This document shows, piece by piece, positions 30,808-61,811 of a stretch of DNA of 64,000 bases. The translations under genes and the position numbers were made by a program. Location of the stretch: the IMG/VR virus record IMGVR_UViG_3300020452_000254, positions 1 to 64,000 of that record; one strand, given 5' to 3'. Every line of letters begins with the position of its first letter. The first letter of the stretch is position 1. The DNA comes from a virus. The notes under the pieces were generated by a model. That model did not search any database. It had not been told where the DNA came from and was given only the letters and a program-made list of their open reading frames with translations.

Positions 30808-31941
30808 TTAATCGTATGCACTTCCATTAAGAGATATTTTCCCTTTTATTATAATTGCTTTATCTGGGTCTGTTGTAGTTATATTAATATCTCCACCATG
30901 TGCAGTGAAATTAATATTACCACCATTATCTGCACTACCTTTATAAGAATTAATATTATAATTACCATTAGAAAGTTCTATATCGGCACTACCAGCAATT
31001 AATACTTTTTTATCTTTTAATATTATTTCGTAATTATTATTTGCAACTTTCATGGTCATATCACCATCTCGAAGAAATTCTATTCTACTACCACTTCGGT
31101 GATATAAATGCAACCTTTCTGCATTAGGAGTGTCATCCATTTCTAATATATGTCCAGATTCAGATTCAATCATATGATTAAAAGGATACTGAGGAGAAAT
31201 ACTTTCACGAGTCGGTTCTTTAACAGATGTACCTTCATGTTTTTGTATAACATCATTTGGATAGGTTAAACTAGACCCAGTGATTGCATTTTCATTTATA
31301 TCGGATTTAGGGTTACCCAAGTCCTCTGTTATTGGACTACCATAATCATCTTCTGTAGTTTTAATACCACCCATATAAGATTCTCTTGGGTAGGTTTCAC
31401 CTTCTATATTATTGGTAAGAGTCGTCCCATTTCCATCCATATATGCAGTAAGAAAAGGTCGTCCCAGAGGTGAGGTTTCTAGAGACCCTCTAAGAGTGAA
31501 ATTACGACCAGTCTTAGGTTTGTCTACACTATCTGCATAATCACCTACTGTAGGTCTTCTAGGGTCGTTAAAACCATGTTCTGGTGACCTATCTTCTGCA
31601 TTATCTGGATTATTCTGAACAATTTTCCATTTTCTAGTCGGTCTTCCAAATAATGACCCAATAACCACAAAATCTTGCATATCTTCCTCATCTCGGAAGA
31701 ATCCCATGACTGTAGAACCTTCTACGAGTCCATGAGGTGATAATCCAAGTCCAGAAAGACTCGGAGCAGTGGTCGGCATAAGGACATCACTCCAAGGCAA
31801 GTCTGGAGATGCAATCATAGTTTTATCATCAGTATGAAGTCCATAGATACGAACTCTCACACGACCCAAATATAATGGGTCATTTCGGTCTTCGATTACT
31901 CCTGTGAAGAAGTTATTTTTTAATCCTGTGAATGTAGGCAT
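30808..31941 (-). CDS. 5: Baseplate hub/spike gp5, no lysozyme domain
   Basis: A 377-residue protein. Residues about 5-120 form the OB-fold N-domain of gp5 (FFTGVIEDRNDPLYLGRVRV, LPWSDVLMP, LVEGSTVMGFFRDEEDMQDF, VIGSLFGRP). The C-terminal ~100 residues are beta-helix-like (GGNINFTAHGGDINITTTDPDKAIIIKGKISLNG), the needle. T4 gp5 has 575 residues with a lysozyme between these parts; the segment between them here has no lysozyme-like motif, as in related marine phages. The ATG at 31941 (MPTFTG) is preferred to an upstream one (31965) because AAAGGAAAAAG lies just ahead of it. Confidence 0.88.
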   Translation of the reverse strand: MPTFTGLKNNFFTGVIEDRNDPLYLGRVRVRIYGLHTDDKTMIASPDLPWSDVLMPTTAPSLSGLGLSPHGLVEGSTVMGFFRDEEDMQDFVVIGSLFGRPTRKWKIVQNNPDNAEDRSPEHGFNDPRRPTVGDYADSVDKPKTGRNFTLRGSLETSPLGRPFLTAYMDGNGTTLTNNIEGETYPRESYMGGIKTTEDDYGSPITEDLGNPKSDINENAITGSSLTYPNDVIQKHEGTSVKEPTRESISPQYPFNHMIESESGHILEMDDTPNAERLHLYHRSGSRIEFLRDGDMTMKVANNNYEIILKDKKVLIAGSADIELSNGNYNINSYKGSADNGGNINFTAHGGDINITTTDPDKAIIIKGKISLNGSAYD

Positions 31942-32032
31942 CTCTTTTTCCTTTATTATAACCATCTTTCCATATAAAGTACACCATAGGTACTAAAATC
32001 AACATATGAAAGATTAATACTGTATATTCCAT
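31913..32032 (-). CDS. 39-residue single-TM protein after panD
   Basis: MEYTVLIFHMLILVPMVYFI is one hydrophobic segment, followed by a basic tail (KDGYNKGKRDAYIHRIKK). The ATG overlaps the panD stop (TGATG), so translation is coupled, and the 3' end overlaps the start of gp5. It is too short for ordinary gene finding but has a real-looking composition. Confidence 0.6.
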   Translation of the reverse strand: MEYTVLIFHMLILVPMVYFIWKDGYNKGKRDAYIHRIKK

Positions 32033-32418
32033 CAACTCAACCCCAAAAGTTCTCTATAAATTCGGTCTTTGGGGTCTATTATCTTAACTGTAGGAGTATG
32101 ATGCAGTTTACCTGCTTGTAGTGTCTCCATGTTGTCATCAAGTTGTATATAAGAACAAATAATGAGTTCATCACCTACATTGGTCAAATGAGCACCAGCA
32201 CCATTGACACTGACCTCATTTGAACCTCTAGGTAATGGTAGGACATATGTAGTATGTCGGTTACCATTTGTTTTATTATATACATCGACCTGTTCATGAA
32301 TAAGGAGTCCCACCTCATCAATCCAGTCTTCATCTATGAGAATACTACCCTCATAGTCTAAATCTACATCGGTGCAGATACAACCATGTATTTTACTATT
32401 TAAAAATGTTCTAATCAT
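32032..32418 (-). CDS. panD: Aspartate 1-decarboxylase (PanD)
   Basis: A 128-residue protein that would decarboxylate L-aspartate to beta-alanine for pantothenate and coenzyme A. The start MIRTFLNSKIHG aligns with bacterial PanD (MLRTML-KIHR). Numbered from the ATG at 32418, Gly24-Ser25 (DYEGS) falls at the self-cleavage site that makes the pyruvoyl cofactor, and Lys9, His11, Tyr22, Arg54, Thr57, Tyr58 and Asn72 (VNGAGAH) fall at the positions known to matter in the E. coli enzyme. Length equals the family norm (126). It sits between baseplate genes gp27 and gp5 and is translationally coupled to tiny membrane proteins on both sides. No other pantothenate gene is in the window. Confidence 0.9.
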   Translation of the reverse strand: MIRTFLNSKIHGCICTDVDLDYEGSILIDEDWIDEVGLLIHEQVDVYNKTNGNRHTTYVLPLPRGSNEVSVNGAGAHLTNVGDELIICSYIQLDDNMETLQAGKLHHTPTVKIIDPKDRIYRELLGLS

Positions 32419-32419
32419 A

Positions 32420-32584
32420 TTATTGTATCCAACACACTGGGTAAACACACCAATAAGGATTAAATATCCCCATCATCCATAATATTAGGAGTCCCAGTGG
32501 TATTTTAACCCAAAGTTTATCTTTAGACCACTCTCTAAACCTTAGAGCATGTGGTACTAGTTTATTATATAACCAATTTGTCAT
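32420..32584 (-). CDS. 54-residue single-TM protein before panD
   Basis: A short basic, amphipathic N-terminus (MTNWLYNKLVPHALRFREW) is followed by a transmembrane segment (VKIPLGLLILWMMGIF) and a Cys/Trp/Tyr-rich tail. Its TAA is 1 nt from the panD ATG and its own ATG is 1 nt from the previous stop, so the three genes form one translation unit. I recognise no homologue. Confidence 0.6.
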   Translation of the reverse strand: MTNWLYNKLVPHALRFREWSKDKLWVKIPLGLLILWMMGIFNPYWCVYPVCWIQ

Positions 32585-32585
32585 A

Positions 32586-32726
32586 TTAAAATATCCATAC
32601 TAAAATAGATGTAAATATTACACCTTTCATAAAACAAAACCATGCTAAACCATATTCATCCATATCACACACATCCATGAAGTTCATCATCATTTCTTTG
32701 TGAATATCTAAAATATTTTTTATCAT
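32586..32726 (-). CDS. 46-residue membrane protein, first gene of panD cassette
   Basis: A 46-residue ORF with GGAGAATAT before its ATG. The N-terminal half is helical and rich in Met and Asp (HKEMMMNFMDVCDMDEYG). The C-terminal half is a hydrophobic segment (WFCFMKGVIFTSILVWIF). It is the probable first gene of the panD unit. Confidence 0.55.
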   Translation of the reverse strand: MIKNILDIHKEMMMNFMDVCDMDEYGLAWFCFMKGVIFTSILVWIF

Positions 32727-32913: not shown

Positions 32914-34482
32914 TTAGACATCCTCTCTTTCTGGTTGCTCGAAAGTATCTGGTATAATATTAAAGCCATCTGAGGTACAACTGAGTTGCATCTCTAGTCC
33001 ATGTGCAATACTACCTGTCCAAGTGATACCTTCTATCAACAAACTACCATTATGTGTCAACTCATCACCTGTCTTACCTATAGATGTTTGTGTTATGTTA
33101 ACATCAATCATCATACCACATGATAGGTCTGTTCGTCCAGCAATCTGCATATTAATTCTATTAGTTGCAAAGAGTGCTTCAACTCTTTCTCTATTTAACT
33201 TGACATTGACTGCACCATTTGATATACTGGCATCAGATATACTCTCATCTGCTACAACAGTGTCACTCATCTTGTGAGGAGAGTCATAGTCAAAGTCTAC
33301 TGCACTACCATATCTCTTGGTGATAGGGTCACTCTTGAAACCCACTGGGGCAGTCTCTGCGACCTCACCATGAATAAACCCACCATCATTAGGTATTCGT
33401 ATACTCTCTGCACCAAGTCTAAAAGGGGCTCCAACACTTATCTGAGCATCTGTATATTTACCTGTCTCTGACTCATCCATCTTAAATTGTTGAGTAAATT
33501 CGTTATCTATTGTTGTCAACTGCTTGGTAACTGTGTTATAATTGTTCACAGATGCACTATAGAGTCCTCTCTTGTGGTTTTTAAGTGTATTATACATGTT
33601 TATCTTGTTGTAGTCTAGTATATCCCACTTCATACTCTGTTTATTCTCACGATTTAACATAATATTGGGTGAACTATCTCTTATTTCGAACTTATAACCA
33701 CCATCAAGGTACTTTAGAGTCTTCATAGAGGTAATATTATGGTATCTGAACCCCTTAGTACATGTCTGATAGAGGTAATAAGAGTCACCATAGGGCATAG
33801 ACTCCTCTGTTGGGTCTGAGGTGTGGTCTCTCAAGTATCTCAGAGTCTTATTCACAGTCCAATTAGGACATAGGAATGCATGGGTCTCTCCTACAGTACC
33901 ACTCATCACACTGAAATAAGTACCGAGTTCCTTCCCCCCCTTCACGAGGGGTTTCAAAGAGTTTTCATCAGTATTATTTAATTGTTTTTGTTCTGTTTCT
34001 GAGGGAAAAAATAAATGGTCTTTGAATATTTGATTGATTATTTGTCCATTAGTCCCAGAGAAATGCTGAGATATTCTCTTAGTTTGTGCTTCATACATCA
34101 GAGGACTACAAAATCTGAGTCCATATACAGTCTTATTTAAGTCACCTTGATTGTCTCTTAGATAGGATGCAAGTTCATATACACGAAATACTTGATTAAT
34201 ATGGTCTAATTCTTCCTCTTCCTCATCATTCCCTACCATACCACAGAAATGTATTCGAATATATTCTTGTCCAGTAAACATTATTCTATTAAATATATTC
34301 ACATTATCTGCAAGTGTTATAGACCCCTGTAGGAATATATCGTATATACTCTCAGATATCTCAAAAGAGTCTACTAAATCAGTAACATCATACTGTTGAC
34401 CCTCATTATTACTGATAACTACATTAATTAATCTATATGCACTTGGATTGTTATATCCTAAAACATTCTGTTGTTGACTCAT
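32914..34482 (-). CDS. 27: Baseplate hub protein, gp27-like
   Basis: A 522-residue protein at the place of the T4 hub gene. It begins YNNPSAYRLINVVISNNEG and YDVTDLVDSFEISESIYDIFLQGSITLADN, the pseudo-sheath domain pattern of gp27-like hub proteins. It ends with a beta domain (NGSLLIEGITWTGSIAHGLEMQLSC). It is longer than T4 gp27 (391). The hub connects the gp5 spike to the tail tube. It precedes gp5 in transcription order, as a hub/spike pair should, separated only by the panD cassette. Confidence 0.75.
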   Translation of the reverse strand: MSQQQNVLGYNNPSAYRLINVVISNNEGQQYDVTDLVDSFEISESIYDIFLQGSITLADNVNIFNRIMFTGQEYIRIHFCGMVGNDEEEEELDHINQVFRVYELASYLRDNQGDLNKTVYGLRFCSPLMYEAQTKRISQHFSGTNGQIINQIFKDHLFFPSETEQKQLNNTDENSLKPLVKGGKELGTYFSVMSGTVGETHAFLCPNWTVNKTLRYLRDHTSDPTEESMPYGDSYYLYQTCTKGFRYHNITSMKTLKYLDGGYKFEIRDSSPNIMLNRENKQSMKWDILDYNKINMYNTLKNHKRGLYSASVNNYNTVTKQLTTIDNEFTQQFKMDESETGKYTDAQISVGAPFRLGAESIRIPNDGGFIHGEVAETAPVGFKSDPITKRYGSAVDFDYDSPHKMSDTVVADESISDASISNGAVNVKLNRERVEALFATNRINMQIAGRTDLSCGMMIDVNITQTSIGKTGDELTHNGSLLIEGITWTGSIAHGLEMQLSCTSDGFNIIPDTFEQPEREDV

Positions 34483-36801: not shown

Positions 36802-36809
36802 TATTTATA
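36802..36809 (-). promoter_or_regulatory. Late promoter box for gp48 operon
   Basis: An exact TATAAATA on the minus strand, 37 nt ahead of the gp48 ATG. It shares a base with the gp4 ATG. It mirrors the plus-strand box at 36765-36772. Confidence 0.7.
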
Positions 36810-45342: not shown

Positions 45343-45370
45343 AGTATACTACAGAATGGGTATCTGTCAA
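45343..45370 (-). promoter_or_regulatory. Sigma70-type promoter for gp33-bS21-gp59
   Basis: TTGACA (45370-45365), a 16-nt spacer and TATACT (45348-45343). The -35 overlaps the end of the Mom-like gene. The predicted transcript starts near 45336. Confidence 0.7.
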
Positions 45371-45912
45371 GTTATTTTGTTTGATAAAAGAGACTTTTCT
45401 TTTTCACTAAAATCAATAACTAAATCTTTATCATATGATTTTGCATACACATGAAATTCATAATCTTCAAGACCAAGAACTCTATCTTTTTGTAACCCAT
45501 AATATTCAAAATTTGTAGCTGCATATATTGTCCCTTGATGCATTCTGTCATCTGCAACTGATACTACACATTTTGCATCAATCATTTTTAAGGTTCTAGA
45601 TAAGAACCAAGATGTTATGTTATGTTCGTCTAATGATGCAACAGCAAGTCTAGCTATCTCCCAGAACCCTTTACAATCTTCTGTGTAACATCCAAAATGT
45701 CTTTCATGAAAAATAGGATTATCTATTGAACCAAAATCATATGAACAATATTGAACAGCACCAACTAACTTATCTTTGTAGAAAAGACCATAACATTTAT
45801 GTCCAGTCCATGGCAATGTTTTTCCATGTACTCCTTCGAGATAATGTTCTTGTTGAATTAGGGACTCAGCATCCTCAAGTGAGATTTCACTTACTTCATA
45901 ATCTTCTTTCAT
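45367..45912 (-). CDS. Mom-like GNAT-fold protein
   Basis: A 181-residue protein of acetyltransferase (GNAT) fold. Its core WEIARLAVASLDEHNITSWF-LSRTLKMI, then VVSVADDRMHQGTIYAATNF-EYYG, follows the pattern of the phage Mu Mom family, which modifies adenines in DNA so that restriction enzymes cannot cut. GNAT acyl-transferases of other function share parts of it, so the role is inferred. It lies between IscU and gp33; AAAGAT precedes the ATG. Confidence 0.7.
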   Translation of the reverse strand: MKEDYEVSEISLEDAESLIQQEHYLEGVHGKTLPWTGHKCYGLFYKDKLVGAVQYCSYDFGSIDNPIFHERHFGCYTEDCKGFWEIARLAVASLDEHNITSWFLSRTLKMIDAKCVVSVADDRMHQGTIYAATNFEYYGLQKDRVLGLEDYEFHVYAKSYDKDLVIDFSEKEKSLLSNKIT

Positions 45913-45919
45913 CTAATCT

Positions 45920-46342
45920 TTAACTTGGTGGGTTGTTGTGTTTTCTGTAAGAGGTTTTTTCTTCCCAGTTCTCGATTGCTTTTTTGATTCCTTCTTCTGC
46001 AAGGACTGAACAGTGGAGTTTAATTGGAGGCAATTCAAGAGCATCTGCAATCTCTTTATCTTTAATGAGTTTTGCTTGTTCAATAGTTTTACCTTTGAGC
46101 ATTTCCACAAACATCGTAGATGACGCAATTGCACTTCCACATCCATAGGTTTTGAATTTGACATCTTCTATAGTGTCTCCATTCATTTTTAAATCAAGTT
46201 TCATGACATCACCACAAGCAGGAGCTCCAACCATTCCTGTTGCAACATTAGGGTCTTTAGGGTCAAACCTTCCGACAGAATGTTTTTCTGGATTCATTAA
46301 CACATCGTTAAATCTATCTACTACCTTTTGTGAATATGCCAT
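45920..46342 (-). CDS. iscU: Iron-sulfur cluster scaffold IscU
   Basis: A 140-residue protein, colinear with bacterial IscU (128 in E. coli). It keeps all three cluster cysteines, Cys43 (GAPACGDVMKL), Cys68 (KTYGCGSAIASS) and Cys111 (LHCSVLAEEGIKKAI), the Asp45 next to the first, and the LPPIK motif (104-108) read by the HscA/HscB chaperones. An insertion of about six residues lies near residue 15. The match is closer to host ISC-type proteins than to NifU, indicating acquisition from a host. No iscS, iscA or hscA is in the window, so it must use host partners. Confidence 0.93.
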   Translation of the reverse strand: MAYSQKVVDRFNDVLMNPEKHSVGRFDPKDPNVATGMVGAPACGDVMKLDLKMNGDTIEDVKFKTYGCGSAIASSTMFVEMLKGKTIEQAKLIKDKEIADALELPPIKLHCSVLAEEGIKKAIENWEEKTSYRKHNNPPS

Positions 46343-48892: not shown

Positions 48893-48920
48893 ATTATACC
48901 TTGTTAAACATATATGTCAA
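48893..48920 (-). promoter_or_regulatory. Sigma70-type promoter, 6 nt from ATG
   Basis: TTGACA (48920-48915), a 16-nt spacer and TATAAT (48898-48893), both perfect. They lie over the last codons of the upstream oxygenase. The -10 ends 6 nt before the downstream ATG. Confidence 0.55.
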
Positions 48921-49424
48921 CCCCATTCTACCTTCTTGTGCATATGAACTGACAAATCCTGCTTTGTGGTCTATTTGACCATCAAAGATTACTACATTAC
49001 CACCTATTGGTAATACACATGTACATTTTGGTTTATCACCATCATAAAACATAGTTTCACCACCTAAATTATAATTCCAATTTGGGTTCATATAACATAT
49101 TGCAGTATAATCTGCCCAATCACGATGTATCTGAGAATTGTCTCCATGTTGAAATAGATTAATATATGCAATTTCTGGGTCTTTGACATGTCCTGTAAAT
49201 GCTTCTATCTGAGGTTTGATGATTTCCCATAGTGGTTTCCAACCTTCTTCTATGTTTTCTTTTGGTTTAATACCATGAGGTGCAAACAATAAAGGTTTAC
49301 CCCATGTTCTAATTTCACTGTCATCATCACTATTTCCTTGCATCTTTCTAACGAATTCATAGTTCTCTATGAAATCTTCATAGAATGGTGCTGGGTCAAA
49401 TGCTTGTTCAATAATTTCAATCAT
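48894..49424 (-). CDS. 2OG-Fe(II) oxygenase
   Basis: A 176-residue dioxygenase core: FQHGDNSQIHRDW holds His100-x-Asp102, GGETMFYDGDK is the conserved strand before the second half, DHKAG holds His153, and GRMGLTY holds Arg166 for 2-oxoglutarate. The ATG at 49424 is preferred to the TTG at 49433. It overlaps the next oxygenase gene, to which it is related in pattern, so the pair may be an old duplication. Substrate unknown. Confidence 0.85.
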   Translation of the reverse strand: MIEIIEQAFDPAPFYEDFIENYEFVRKMQGNSDDDSEIRTWGKPLLFAPHGIKPKENIEEGWKPLWEIIKPQIEAFTGHVKDPEIAYINLFQHGDNSQIHRDWADYTAICYMNPNWNYNLGGETMFYDGDKPKCTCVLPIGGNVVIFDGQIDHKAGFVSSYAQEGRMGLTYMFNKV

Positions 49425-50193
49425 CTTTATCAAAAAAATATGTTGCAGCGTATCTAGGTGTTCGAGCTTCCCAACTTACTGATGCAACTTTGTGAAATAT
49501 ATCTCCACGAAATACAACTGCACTACCACCTTTTGGTGCTGTAGTAGCACGAACAAAATCTACATCGTCATTAAAGAATAGAGTTTCTCCACCCCACTTT
49601 CTTAAATCCCAGAACTCTGGTAAATTAAAATAAACAATTGCACTGTAGTCCATGTAGTCTTGATGAGCCCAAGTACTATCTCCATGTTGAAATGCATGAA
49701 TATAACAATTGTTATATGGTTTTAACTTGACACCTAATGTTTCTTCGAAGTGTGGATGAAACTTATCCCATGCATCATCTACAAGTGAATGTATCTTTGG
49801 ATGGTGAGAAAAGTATTCTGATTGTATTTCCATATGTTCACCATACTTCTCCATAGTTTCTTTATCATAGTCACCTTCTTTATATGCTCTTTTAGCTGCA
49901 TTTGAAAAATCTTCTGCACTTCTTGATACATTCATATACCACGAACTCTTTTCATATGTTCCAGTTATGAATGGACTAAATCCACCACTTTCTCTTAATT
50001 GTTTTTGAAACTCTGGGTCTCCACTTCTATCCATTACTATTGATGGTGGATTACCACCATATGCTAAGAACCCTTGAATAAATGAACCATGATTGATTAC
50101 ATCAAACATCCAATTCTGAACTATGTTGTCTGGGACAACATCATCTATCAAATAGATTTCATCACCCATTATATCAATATGTTTACTTTTCAT
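49417..50193 (-). CDS. 2OG-Fe(II) oxygenase
   Basis: A 258-residue dioxygenase: AFQHGDSTWAHQDY with His177-x-Asp179, GGETLFFNDD, GGSAVVFRGDIFHKV with His234, and TPRYAATYFF with Arg247. It shares the HGDS/HGDN and GGETxF features with its downstream neighbour and has about 80 extra N-terminal residues. The ATG overlaps the end of a 47-residue coiled-coil gene. No Shine-Dalgarno sequence is visible. Confidence 0.85.
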   Translation of the reverse strand: MKSKHIDIMGDEIYLIDDVVPDNIVQNWMFDVINHGSFIQGFLAYGGNPPSIVMDRSGDPEFQKQLRESGGFSPFITGTYEKSSWYMNVSRSAEDFSNAAKRAYKEGDYDKETMEKYGEHMEIQSEYFSHHPKIHSLVDDAWDKFHPHFEETLGVKLKPYNNCYIHAFQHGDSTWAHQDYMDYSAIVYFNLPEFWDLRKWGGETLFFNDDVDFVRATTAPKGGSAVVFRGDIFHKVASVSWEARTPRYAATYFFDKDD

Positions 50194-59031: not shown

Positions 59032-59268
59032 TTATTTATTGTTCCAATCTGTATTATGCCATTTATCTAGTTGGTCATATCCACCAATTGACTCTCCATC
59101 AATTTTTATTTGTGGAAATGTTCTTGCAGTTGGAAATATTTCAAAGAGTTCTTCTCTAGTAAAATCTTCGTCCAACATATAATACTTATACTCATATCCT
59201 TGTTGTTCACATAAGTTTTTTGCTTTTACACAATAAGGACATGATGGTTTTGAATATATTTCTATCAT
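59032..59268 (-). CDS. grx: Glutaredoxin
   Basis: A 78-residue glutaredoxin: active site Cys10-Pro-Tyr-Cys13 (SKPSCPYCVKAKNL), the cis-Pro loop (ARTFPQIKID) and the GGYDQL glutathione-binding turn. It would reduce the ribonucleotide reductase encoded alongside, as in T4. It overlaps the cytochrome c gene by 4 nt. Confidence 0.9.
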   Translation of the reverse strand: MIEIYSKPSCPYCVKAKNLCEQQGYEYKYYMLDEDFTREELFEIFPTARTFPQIKIDGESIGGYDQLDKWHNTDWNNK

Positions 59269-59708
59269 TTTAGTTCTACCTCAATAAATTTACCCAACAT
59301 ATTTATATCTGCATCAGATAACATACCTGCTTGGGCCCACATGGTGGAACTCATCCCACCTACTGTTTCTCTGTTCTTATATGCATTGAGTCTATCTACA
59401 ATATAGTCTTGAGATTGACCAGCAAGTTTAGGGAAGACTGCCATACCTTGACCTTCTGCACCATGACAAGCTGCACAACCACTCCATAGACTTCTGATAT
59501 CACTGAATTCATCTGCATTTGCAAGTTCTTGTTTTGCTTTAAGTATCTCTACAGTTGTTCCATTGACTCTAACATACTCTTCATAACATTCACCTGTACA
59601 TGAATGACCACCACCAACTCCAGAGTATTCTAGATTGGGATATATTTTTAGTGTAAAGAATGCAAAGATTACAAATACACCTATCATTGTCATACCTAAT
59701 TCGTTCAC
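59265..59708 (-). CDS. Membrane-anchored cytochrome c
   Basis: A 147-residue protein. An N-terminal hydrophobic segment (residues 5-22, GMTMIGVFVIFAFFTLKI) anchors or exports it. Then comes a class I cytochrome c domain with the heme motif Cys78-Ala-Ala-Cys81-His82 (WSGCAACHGAEGQGMAVFPK-LAGQ) and Met119 or Met123 as sixth ligand (GGMSSTMWAQAGMLSD). A second Cys pair (HSCTGEC, 37-41) lies just after the anchor. Heme attachment needs the host maturation system in the periplasm. It is embedded between nrdB and glutaredoxin with 4-nt overlaps on both sides. The start is GTG at 59708. Confidence 0.88.
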   Translation of the reverse strand: MNELGMTMIGVFVIFAFFTLKIYPNLEYSGVGGGHSCTGECYEEYVRVNGTTVEILKAKQELANADEFSDIRSLWSGCAACHGAEGQGMAVFPKLAGQSQDYIVDRLNAYKNRETVGGMSSTMWAQAGMLSDADINMLGKFIEVELK

Positions 59709-60805
59709 AGTTCAAATCCCTTGAAAGTATCTTCTTTAATATCTTGTTTAATACCACCAATGACATAAGACTCTATTTCTGTCTCCTGTGGTGCATTCTG
59801 TTGTCCTCTAGAGGTCAACCAGTGTTGAGTCCATGGCAATGGGTTAGTTCTACTAGAAATGTCGTAGATTGGATTTAAACCAATTGCACGAAGTCTTCTG
59901 TTTGCAATGTATTCAACATAATGACTTAATAATGTTGTAGATAAACCTAGCATACTACCATGCATGAATAAGTATTCTGCCCAGTCTTTTTCTTCTGCAA
60001 CAGCTTCTTCATACATTTGATAAACATCTGGTTCACAATCTTTCATTACCTTAGTCATAACTTTATCTTTCTCTTGATTCTGATAACATTTAAGGATGTG
60101 TTGAGTGATTGCAAGATGTTGTGCTTCGTCTCTTGCAATCAAACTGATAATCTTTGCAGAACCTTCCATCTTTTTCATTTCACCAAATGCAAAAGTACAT
60201 GCAAATGATACAAAGAAACGAAGACCTTCAAGTATGTTGATACTTATAAGTGCAAGATATAATCTTTTCTTGAGTTCGTATTCATCTTTTTCGTAACCTA
60301 AACTATATCTTTGTGCATAGTCAATGAATTCATCATATCTTTTTGTAACTGATTCTGCTCTTGCAATAATCTTTTCATCATCAAGAATTGTATCAAATAC
60401 TTTTGTTGGGTCTGGATATAGATTCTTTATCATATAAGTGTATGAACGACTATGGATAGTTTCCATAAAGTCCCATGTGATAATACATCCTTCTAACTCT
60501 GGAAGAGTACAAAATGGTAGTAGTGCAGTTGCAGGCCCTCTACCTTGAACTGAATCTAAAAGTGTTTGATACTTTAGATTACTAGTAAAGATATGTTTGT
60601 GTGCTTTACTTAGTTCATTGTAATCGTTCCTATCTTTTTGAAGAGAAACTTCTTCTGGTCTCCAGAAGTAACCCAATTGTCTTTGTGTGAGTTTGTCGAA
60701 AATCGGATATTTAAAATCGTCATATCGTTGGGTATTAAGTTCCTCTCCAAAGAAGATTGGATTCTTTAAAAAATTTACTTTGTTTCTATTAAATACTTTA
60801 CTCAT
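59705..60805 (-). CDS. nrdB: Ribonucleotide reductase class Ia, beta subunit
   Basis: A 366-residue NrdB. The diiron ligands and radical tyrosine are in place: Asp in LLDSVQGR, Glu-x-x-His and Tyr in METIHSRSYTYM, Glu in NILEGLRFFVSFACTFAF, and Glu/His in ARDEAQHLAITQH. The C-terminus (EDTFKGFEL) would dock on NrdA. The ATG at 60805 (SKVFNRNK) is preferred to an upstream GTG (60826). It overlaps the 2OG-oxygenase gene by 8 nt. Confidence 0.93.
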   Translation of the reverse strand: MSKVFNRNKVNFLKNPIFFGEELNTQRYDDFKYPIFDKLTQRQLGYFWRPEEVSLQKDRNDYNELSKAHKHIFTSNLKYQTLLDSVQGRGPATALLPFCTLPELEGCIITWDFMETIHSRSYTYMIKNLYPDPTKVFDTILDDEKIIARAESVTKRYDEFIDYAQRYSLGYEKDEYELKKRLYLALISINILEGLRFFVSFACTFAFGEMKKMEGSAKIISLIARDEAQHLAITQHILKCYQNQEKDKVMTKVMKDCEPDVYQMYEEAVAEEKDWAEYLFMHGSMLGLSTTLLSHYVEYIANRRLRAIGLNPIYDISSRTNPLPWTQHWLTSRGQQNAPQETEIESYVIGGIKQDIKEDTFKGFEL

Positions 60806-61811
60806 GTTTCTCGTGTCCTTTTGCACATACTTTACCTGTAATAGGGTCTGTCAATGCAGAATTCCCATATCTCCAATAATTCTTTTTACCTTGTATAAAT
60901 GAATTTGCATCTTCCCATGCTCTTCCTGTTTTACTTCCTACTCCATGATATATTGATGGTCTACCATCATATGCAAGTTGAGGGAAATCTCTATAGATAG
61001 GCCCATCTTTATGAAGATAGTGTATAAAGATTTGTCTTGCAGATTCACCAGCAAGTCTTTCTCTCCAGTGAATTACATTACTACCTTGATAAAACATTGC
61101 ATCACCAGGCTCTAGTTTTACTGGAATACAATTTTCTCTTTCATCAAAAGGACTCCCCATTGATAATTCCCATGATTCATCATTTGCCATAGAACAATAA
61201 TTCATATCATTTCTGACCCAAATAGTCCATGGCTTCTTATCATCAGTATTATATGAGATAGGGAAAGTTGCACTAAATTCACATGATGGTCTATCAGTGT
61301 GACTTAGTAGTCTAGAATGTCTATCGTAAGTTCTTCCATATGAGTATGTTGGAACTAATCTGATACCAAACAAATCTTCTATCTTTTGTTGATACATTAG
61401 GAGAATAGTTTCTCCATAGTTAGGAAATGGCATTCCTTTACTAACCCAAGTATCTAATCCTTTACCTTTATCGTCAAAGTTATCACCTATGATATGTTCT
61501 TCTCTATAGTATTGTTTCCTTCTTTCTTGAAACTTAAACATATGAGAAGTCCATTCAATATGGTCTTTATTAAAAAAGTTTCTTGCAATATAAAATCTAT
61601 TCTTTGCAAATTGATACCCTTCTTTGGTTATCTCTGGTGCATCCTCTGGATGGTCTGTATCTGGATTAAAGATTTCAATTCTTGCATCTGAATTGTAGTC
61701 TATGTAACTATCTTTAATCTTTTGTTTATATTTATCGTAAAACTTAGACTTATCTACTTTTCTTTTTTGATTTTCTTCTTTACTTCTTCTTGCAAATTTT
61801 AAATGGCGCAT
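60798..61811 (-). CDS. 2OG-Fe(II) oxygenase in the nrd operon
   Basis: A 337-residue dioxygenase: HSRLLSHTDRPSCEF holds His171-x-Asp173, LEPGDAMFYQGSNVIHWRER holds His249, and SARQIFIHYLH holds Arg259. The basic N-terminal ~50 residues are extra. It lies between nrdA and nrdB, overlapping both. Neighbourhood suggests co-expression with DNA precursor synthesis; the substrate is unknown. Confidence 0.85.
   Translation of the reverse strand: MRHLKFARRSKEENQKRKVDKSKFYDKYKQKIKDSYIDYNSDARIEIFNPDTDHPEDAPEITKEGYQFAKNRFYIARNFFNKDHIEWTSHMFKFQERRKQYYREEHIIGDNFDDKGKGLDTWVSKGMPFPNYGETILLMYQQKIEDLFGIRLVPTYSYGRTYDRHSRLLSHTDRPSCEFSATFPISYNTDDKKPWTIWVRNDMNYCSMANDESWELSMGSPFDERENCIPVKLEPGDAMFYQGSNVIHWRERLAGESARQIFIHYLHKDGPIYRDFPQLAYDGRPSIYHGVGSKTGRAWEDANSFIQGKKNYWRYGNSALTDPITGKVCAKGHEKHE

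Follow-up and report, generated by a model that had tools for sequence, protein, structure and literature searches.

Aspartate 1-decarboxylase (PanD) is, with near certainty, the product of a gene carried within the baseplate cluster of a T4-like phage, and this gene is found at the same site in every testable locus of the clade to which the phage belongs. The DNA analyzed, referred to here as the window, comprises 64 kb out of a 75.6-kb viral record. The preferred reading, to which a probability of about 0.6 is assigned, is that the enzyme is active, that its gene was acquired once and is expressed from a late operon, and that it supplies beta-alanine to the PanC of the host for coenzyme A (CoA) synthesis. 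A preliminary description of the sequence had recognized an intact phage-borne PanD among late structural genes that would fit an auxiliary metabolic gene, and this view is supported: panD is a metabolic gene inside a viral genome with viral genes on both sides.

The panD gene product

The open reading frame begins with an ATG at 32418 on the minus strand, extends to a last sense codon ending at 32035 and closes with a stop codon at 32034-32032.

32032..32418, minus strand: panD, aspartate 1-decarboxylase, 128 amino acids (family models, PDB alignment, invariant residues and fold)
32344..32349, minus strand: Gly24-Ser25 codons, predicted self-cleavage site with pyruvoyl Ser25 (counted from the ATG at 32418; invariant in relatives)

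The family-model search that had been proposed as a check matched Pfam PF02261 (Asp_decarbox) at E=1e-33 (116 bits; cut-off 25) and the NCBIfam panD equivalog TIGR00223 at 109.9 bits, above its curated cut-off of 106. In a PDB search, E. coli PanD was matched at 1.4e-25 with residues 1-96 aligned without a gap, which bears out the earlier claim of a gapless alignment containing all of the listed residues (K9, H11, Y22, G24, S25, R54, T57, Y58 and N72). Among the window and its 44 related viral loci, none of these residues varies in the 42-45 phage sequences covering it, and each occurs in 108-110 of the 110 bacterial PanD rows of the alignment. Residue 75, which the preliminary description did not mention, is Gly in the phage clade and Ala in all 110 bacterial rows. 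An AlphaFold (AF2) model of the protein has a pLDDT of 80; when this model was used in a fold search of the PDB, the top 39 matches were all PanD (best 1.6e-13, TM-score on the target up to 0.91), and the predicted fold is the double-psi beta-barrel seen in PanD crystal structures.

Length, gapless core, cleavage site, active-site residues and the predicted barrel are therefore shared with bacterial PanD (PF02261, TIGR00223; E. coli 1ppy), whereas the phage proteins differ from it in their identity of at most 54% to the bacterial proteins found, in Gly75 for Ala and in forming a separate clade on a long stem. Judged from the sequence, the phage enzyme is probably catalytically competent and pyruvoyl-dependent, with both cleavage and activity expected.

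Locus and presumed late promoter

The genes for gp48, gp53 and a tail-hub homologue lie upstream of panD, and those for gp5, gp25 and gp6 lie downstream. With the hub homologue on one side and gp5, then gp25 and gp6, on the other, panD had been placed correctly inside the baseplate cluster. The immediate neighbors and the candidate promoter are listed below.

30808..31965, minus strand: gp5-like baseplate hub/lysozyme protein, downstream neighbor (homology)
31913..32035, minus strand: predicted single-pass membrane protein, 40 amino acids, overlapping the panD stop codon (found only with panD)
32420..32584, minus strand: small hydrophobic protein, 54 amino acids, immediately upstream of panD (only in panD-bearing relatives)
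32586..32726, minus strand: small predicted membrane protein, 46 amino acids, more widely conserved than the other companions of panD (occurrence in relatives)
32914..34482, minus strand: tail hub-like protein, upstream neighbor (homology)
36802..36809, minus strand: TATAAATA, sequence resembling a late promoter, about 44 bp upstream of the gp48 gene (motif; same place in relatives)

Every relative in which any of the three small predicted membrane proteins around panD was found is panD-bearing, the most variable of the three being present in nine loci and the other two in 32 and 53. In one panD-less relative (L209:3837-5137), lipoprotein-like open reading frames fill the hub-gp5 interval, which makes it a possible insertion site.

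A 146-kb relative (L140) is nearly collinear with the entire record, and about 40 separate IMG/VR contigs show the same panD synteny. An assembly artefact or a bacterial contaminant contig could be suspected from the fact that some database 'phage' PanD matches resemble bacterial contigs; however, this reading is refuted by the identical synteny of the separate contigs, phage genes flank panD on both sides across 64 kb, and its probability is negligible. Many of the GenBank 'phage' matches obtained with tblastn (OR84...; Listeria, Staphylococcus, Escherichia) were probably bacterial contigs and were disregarded.

The motif TATAAATA, the late-promoter type of T4-like phages, has no further copy in the window between the site upstream of gp48 and panD, and was found at the matching position in the 20 relatives checked. 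In six of the 20 it lies 31 bp into gp48, whose predicted start is probably too far upstream. The site is presumed to be the promoter of the operon containing panD, which suggests that panD is transcribed late together with the baseplate operon.

Distribution and selection

Because loci fetched by panD itself would be biased, sampling was made blind to panD with gp6 as the bait, a locus being testable where its contig covers the site. Where gp6 is at least 78% identical to that of the window, panD is present at the hub-gp5 site in 22/22 testable loci, whereas it is present in 0/4 testable loci of the group at 70-73% and in 0/27 of the group at 58-61% (0/31 for these next two clades together); in most loci of the 58-61% group gp5 directly adjoins the hub gene. 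This distribution fits a single gain at the base of the group of at least 78% identity, with no later loss in the sample.

The median pairwise dN/dS of panD is 0.14, compared with 0.18-0.30 in five neighboring tail genes, so that panD is under the strongest constraint of the six tail-cluster genes tested and has been kept in the virus lineage by purifying selection. Such strong selection bears on a reading in which the PanD fold is dead or repurposed and has no decarboxylase role. The clade-specific change of Ala75 to Gly, which also counts against the preferred reading, and the long stem branch would agree with a lost function, but the constraint on the gene and the invariance of the Gly-Ser cleavage site and of all listed catalytic residues make it very improbable.

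Origin and other phage PanDs

A phylogenetic tree separated the phage proteins from bacterial PanD: the PanDs of the window lineage and of a second phage lineage (L037-L040) form one clade with an SH-aLRT of 99 and a long stem. No bacterial donor was found, the best bacterial identity being 54% and the tree containing no close relative, and no PHROGs family matched the PanD of the window.

The PanD of the second lineage is 72% identical and is encoded beside phoH and ribonucleotide reductase genes, away from tail genes, a setting that favors an enzymatic role over one in the tail. Genes for AMP-binding enzymes also adjoin it. This arrangement is relevant to the reading that ranks next among the rivals, behind other uses of beta-alanine: that PanD forms part of the baseplate in the virion, either as a structural protein or as an enzyme carried in. 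T4 dihydrofolate reductase and thymidylate synthase have been claimed as baseplate virion components; in the present clade, the position of panD between two hub genes is fixed in every member, the gene evolves more slowly than its structural neighbors and it has a presumed late promoter. Nevertheless, the sister clades build baseplates without PanD, with the hub gene adjoining gp5, every catalytic residue is retained, and the 72% identical protein stands apart from tail genes, so that a virion role is considered unlikely.

A third, unrelated phage contig (L128:849-1172) encodes a diverged PanD of 44% identity in which His11 is replaced by Gln. PanD is also annotated in two phage isolates, namely as gp87 of the Rhodococcus/Gordonia phage Jace and in Achromobacter phage 2-1, so the occurrence of panD in a phage is not in itself new. 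These are unrelated phages, whose PanDs are about 34-41% identical and are encoded among replication or other non-tail genes; the protein of Achromobacter phage 2-1 has His at residues 54 and 72 and may therefore be inactive.

Host and the pantothenate pathway

By gp6 and the capsid protein, the nearest isolates are phages of OM43 and SAR11, and two of the nearest cultured phages infect SAR11. The capsid protein is 68% identical to that of the OM43 phage Melnitz and 64% identical to that of the SAR11 phage HTVC008M. The IscU of the phage has its best alphaproteobacterial match at 64% and only a weak SAR11 match, and is nearer to non-SAR11 alphaproteobacteria; host assignment through this protein was rejected as uninformative. 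A contig of the Synechococcus CPC35 metagenome-assembled genome (NYUU01000001.1, L047) was likewise rejected as evidence of the host, since it is a phage contig of the panD clade that contaminates the bin. SAR11 is a likely candidate for one host class of the panD clade. HTVC008M and Mosig, which are cultured phages of SAR11, lack panD, and the gene is thus not needed for SAR11 infection.

PanD was found in 49 of the 289 alphaproteobacterial genomes sampled (17%), and two of the sampled genomes carry the SAR11 16S signature, their SAR11 identity being supported by four SAR11 probes that match both exactly. The same figure of 17% for Alphaproteobacteria is given in PMC7142369. Within the SAR11 family, PanD was found in 0/99 genomes searched, while PanC was found in 53/60 and PanB in 54/60, and incomplete assemblies can therefore not account for the missing PanD. 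The earlier suggestion of an incomplete pathway in streamlined bacteria thus holds for SAR11 in a specific form, with PanB and PanC present and PanD absent. Neither PanB nor PanC is encoded in the phage records searched, so the phage PanD would depend on the host. If the host is SAR11-like, the phage provides exactly the step that is missing there.

Proposed role

In the proposed mechanism, the common ancestor of a clade of marine T4-like phages would have gained panD once, at the hub-gp5 gap, together with the small membrane-protein genes. The proenzyme would cleave itself at Gly24-Ser25 with no PanM/PanZ helper, and the processed protein would assemble as a tetramer and convert host aspartate to beta-alanine. 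Late in infection, host PanC would join beta-alanine to pantoate, giving pantothenate and then CoA; in SAR11-like hosts, which have PanB and PanC without PanD, the phage enzyme would fill the sole missing step. PanM is confined to Gammaproteobacteria, and maturation of class II PanD is independent of PanM, unlike that of the PanM-bearing gammaproteobacterial type (PMC4537548). The benefit would presumably lie in the supply of CoA or 4'-phosphopantetheine. Late expression of the enzyme leaves little time for changing vitamin pools, which counts against the proposed role.

An acyl carrier protein (ACP), which requires 4'-phosphopantetheine, is encoded just outside the window (66037-66252 of the genome; L046:6038-6253, minus strand) and at 75492-75710 in the 146-kb relative, in both cases above the TIGR00517 cut-off. 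The phage ACP is suggested only as one possible consumer of 4'-phosphopantetheine: as a partner specific to panD it was rejected, because cyanophages without a panD match also have ACP. The ACP genes would also accord with an active PanD whose product is used outside host CoA, in charging the phage ACP or in balancing aspartate or protons late in infection, as would the small membrane proteins, which occur alongside panD and are missing from relatives without it. The presence of ACP in the cyanophages speaks against such a use, which is regarded as unlikely.

Other genes of the window and its relative

The window further encodes, all on the minus strand, an IscU/NifU-like Fe-S scaffold protein (45920-46342) that is 91% identical in the 146-kb relative, a Mom-family DNA-modification protein (45367-45912) and a protein with a cytochrome c domain adjoining nrdB (59265-59708). 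Four 2-oxoglutarate/Fe(II) oxygenase-like proteins are also encoded (79-894, 48894-49433, 49417-50193 and 60798-61811, minus strand), of which only that at 48894-49433 gave a family match, to FlmC below the cut-off. The 146-kb relative has an IscA/SufA-like gene near about 111 kb, and its region at 102-110 kb contains curli-type genes, including CsgG, with peroxiredoxin-like and Hsp20-like genes.

Relation to known systems

The pelagimyophages HTVC008M and Mosig and the OM43 phage Melnitz (Kyanoviridae) have T4-like baseplate genes and the capsid and gp6 proteins nearest to those of the window phage; unlike the window clade, they are without panD, and in HTVC008M and Mosig the hub-gp5 interval is filled by other small genes. 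The CsgG gene of the 146-kb relative is a further likeness to pelagimyophages, a survey of which reported CsgG for that group (PMC7029224); its main text mentions neither panD nor a decarboxylase. For the virome of an oxygen-minimum zone (PMC8940887), the auxiliary metabolic genes proposed for vitamin B5/CoA were pantoate transferase and pantothenate kinase, which like phage panD belong to pantothenate/CoA synthesis; aspartate decarboxylase is not named there. The main texts of the literature searched contain nothing on panD as a viral gene, and a clade-fixed panD in a late operon that matches a gap in the host appears to be unreported in that literature.

Auxiliary metabolic genes have mostly been judged from a single contig; panD here holds one fixed position across a clade, is more constrained than the tail genes beside it and corresponds to a specific gap, open to checking, in the marine bacteria that are most abundant. 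It is tentatively suggested that the clade keeps the missing pantothenate enzyme of its host as a core late gene, through which the infected cell would gain a synthesis of beta-alanine from aspartate, and hence of vitamin B5 and CoA, that the uninfected host lacks, and possibly charge the phage ACP. A vitamin B5/CoA bottleneck in the phage infection of streamlined bacteria is thereby made directly testable.
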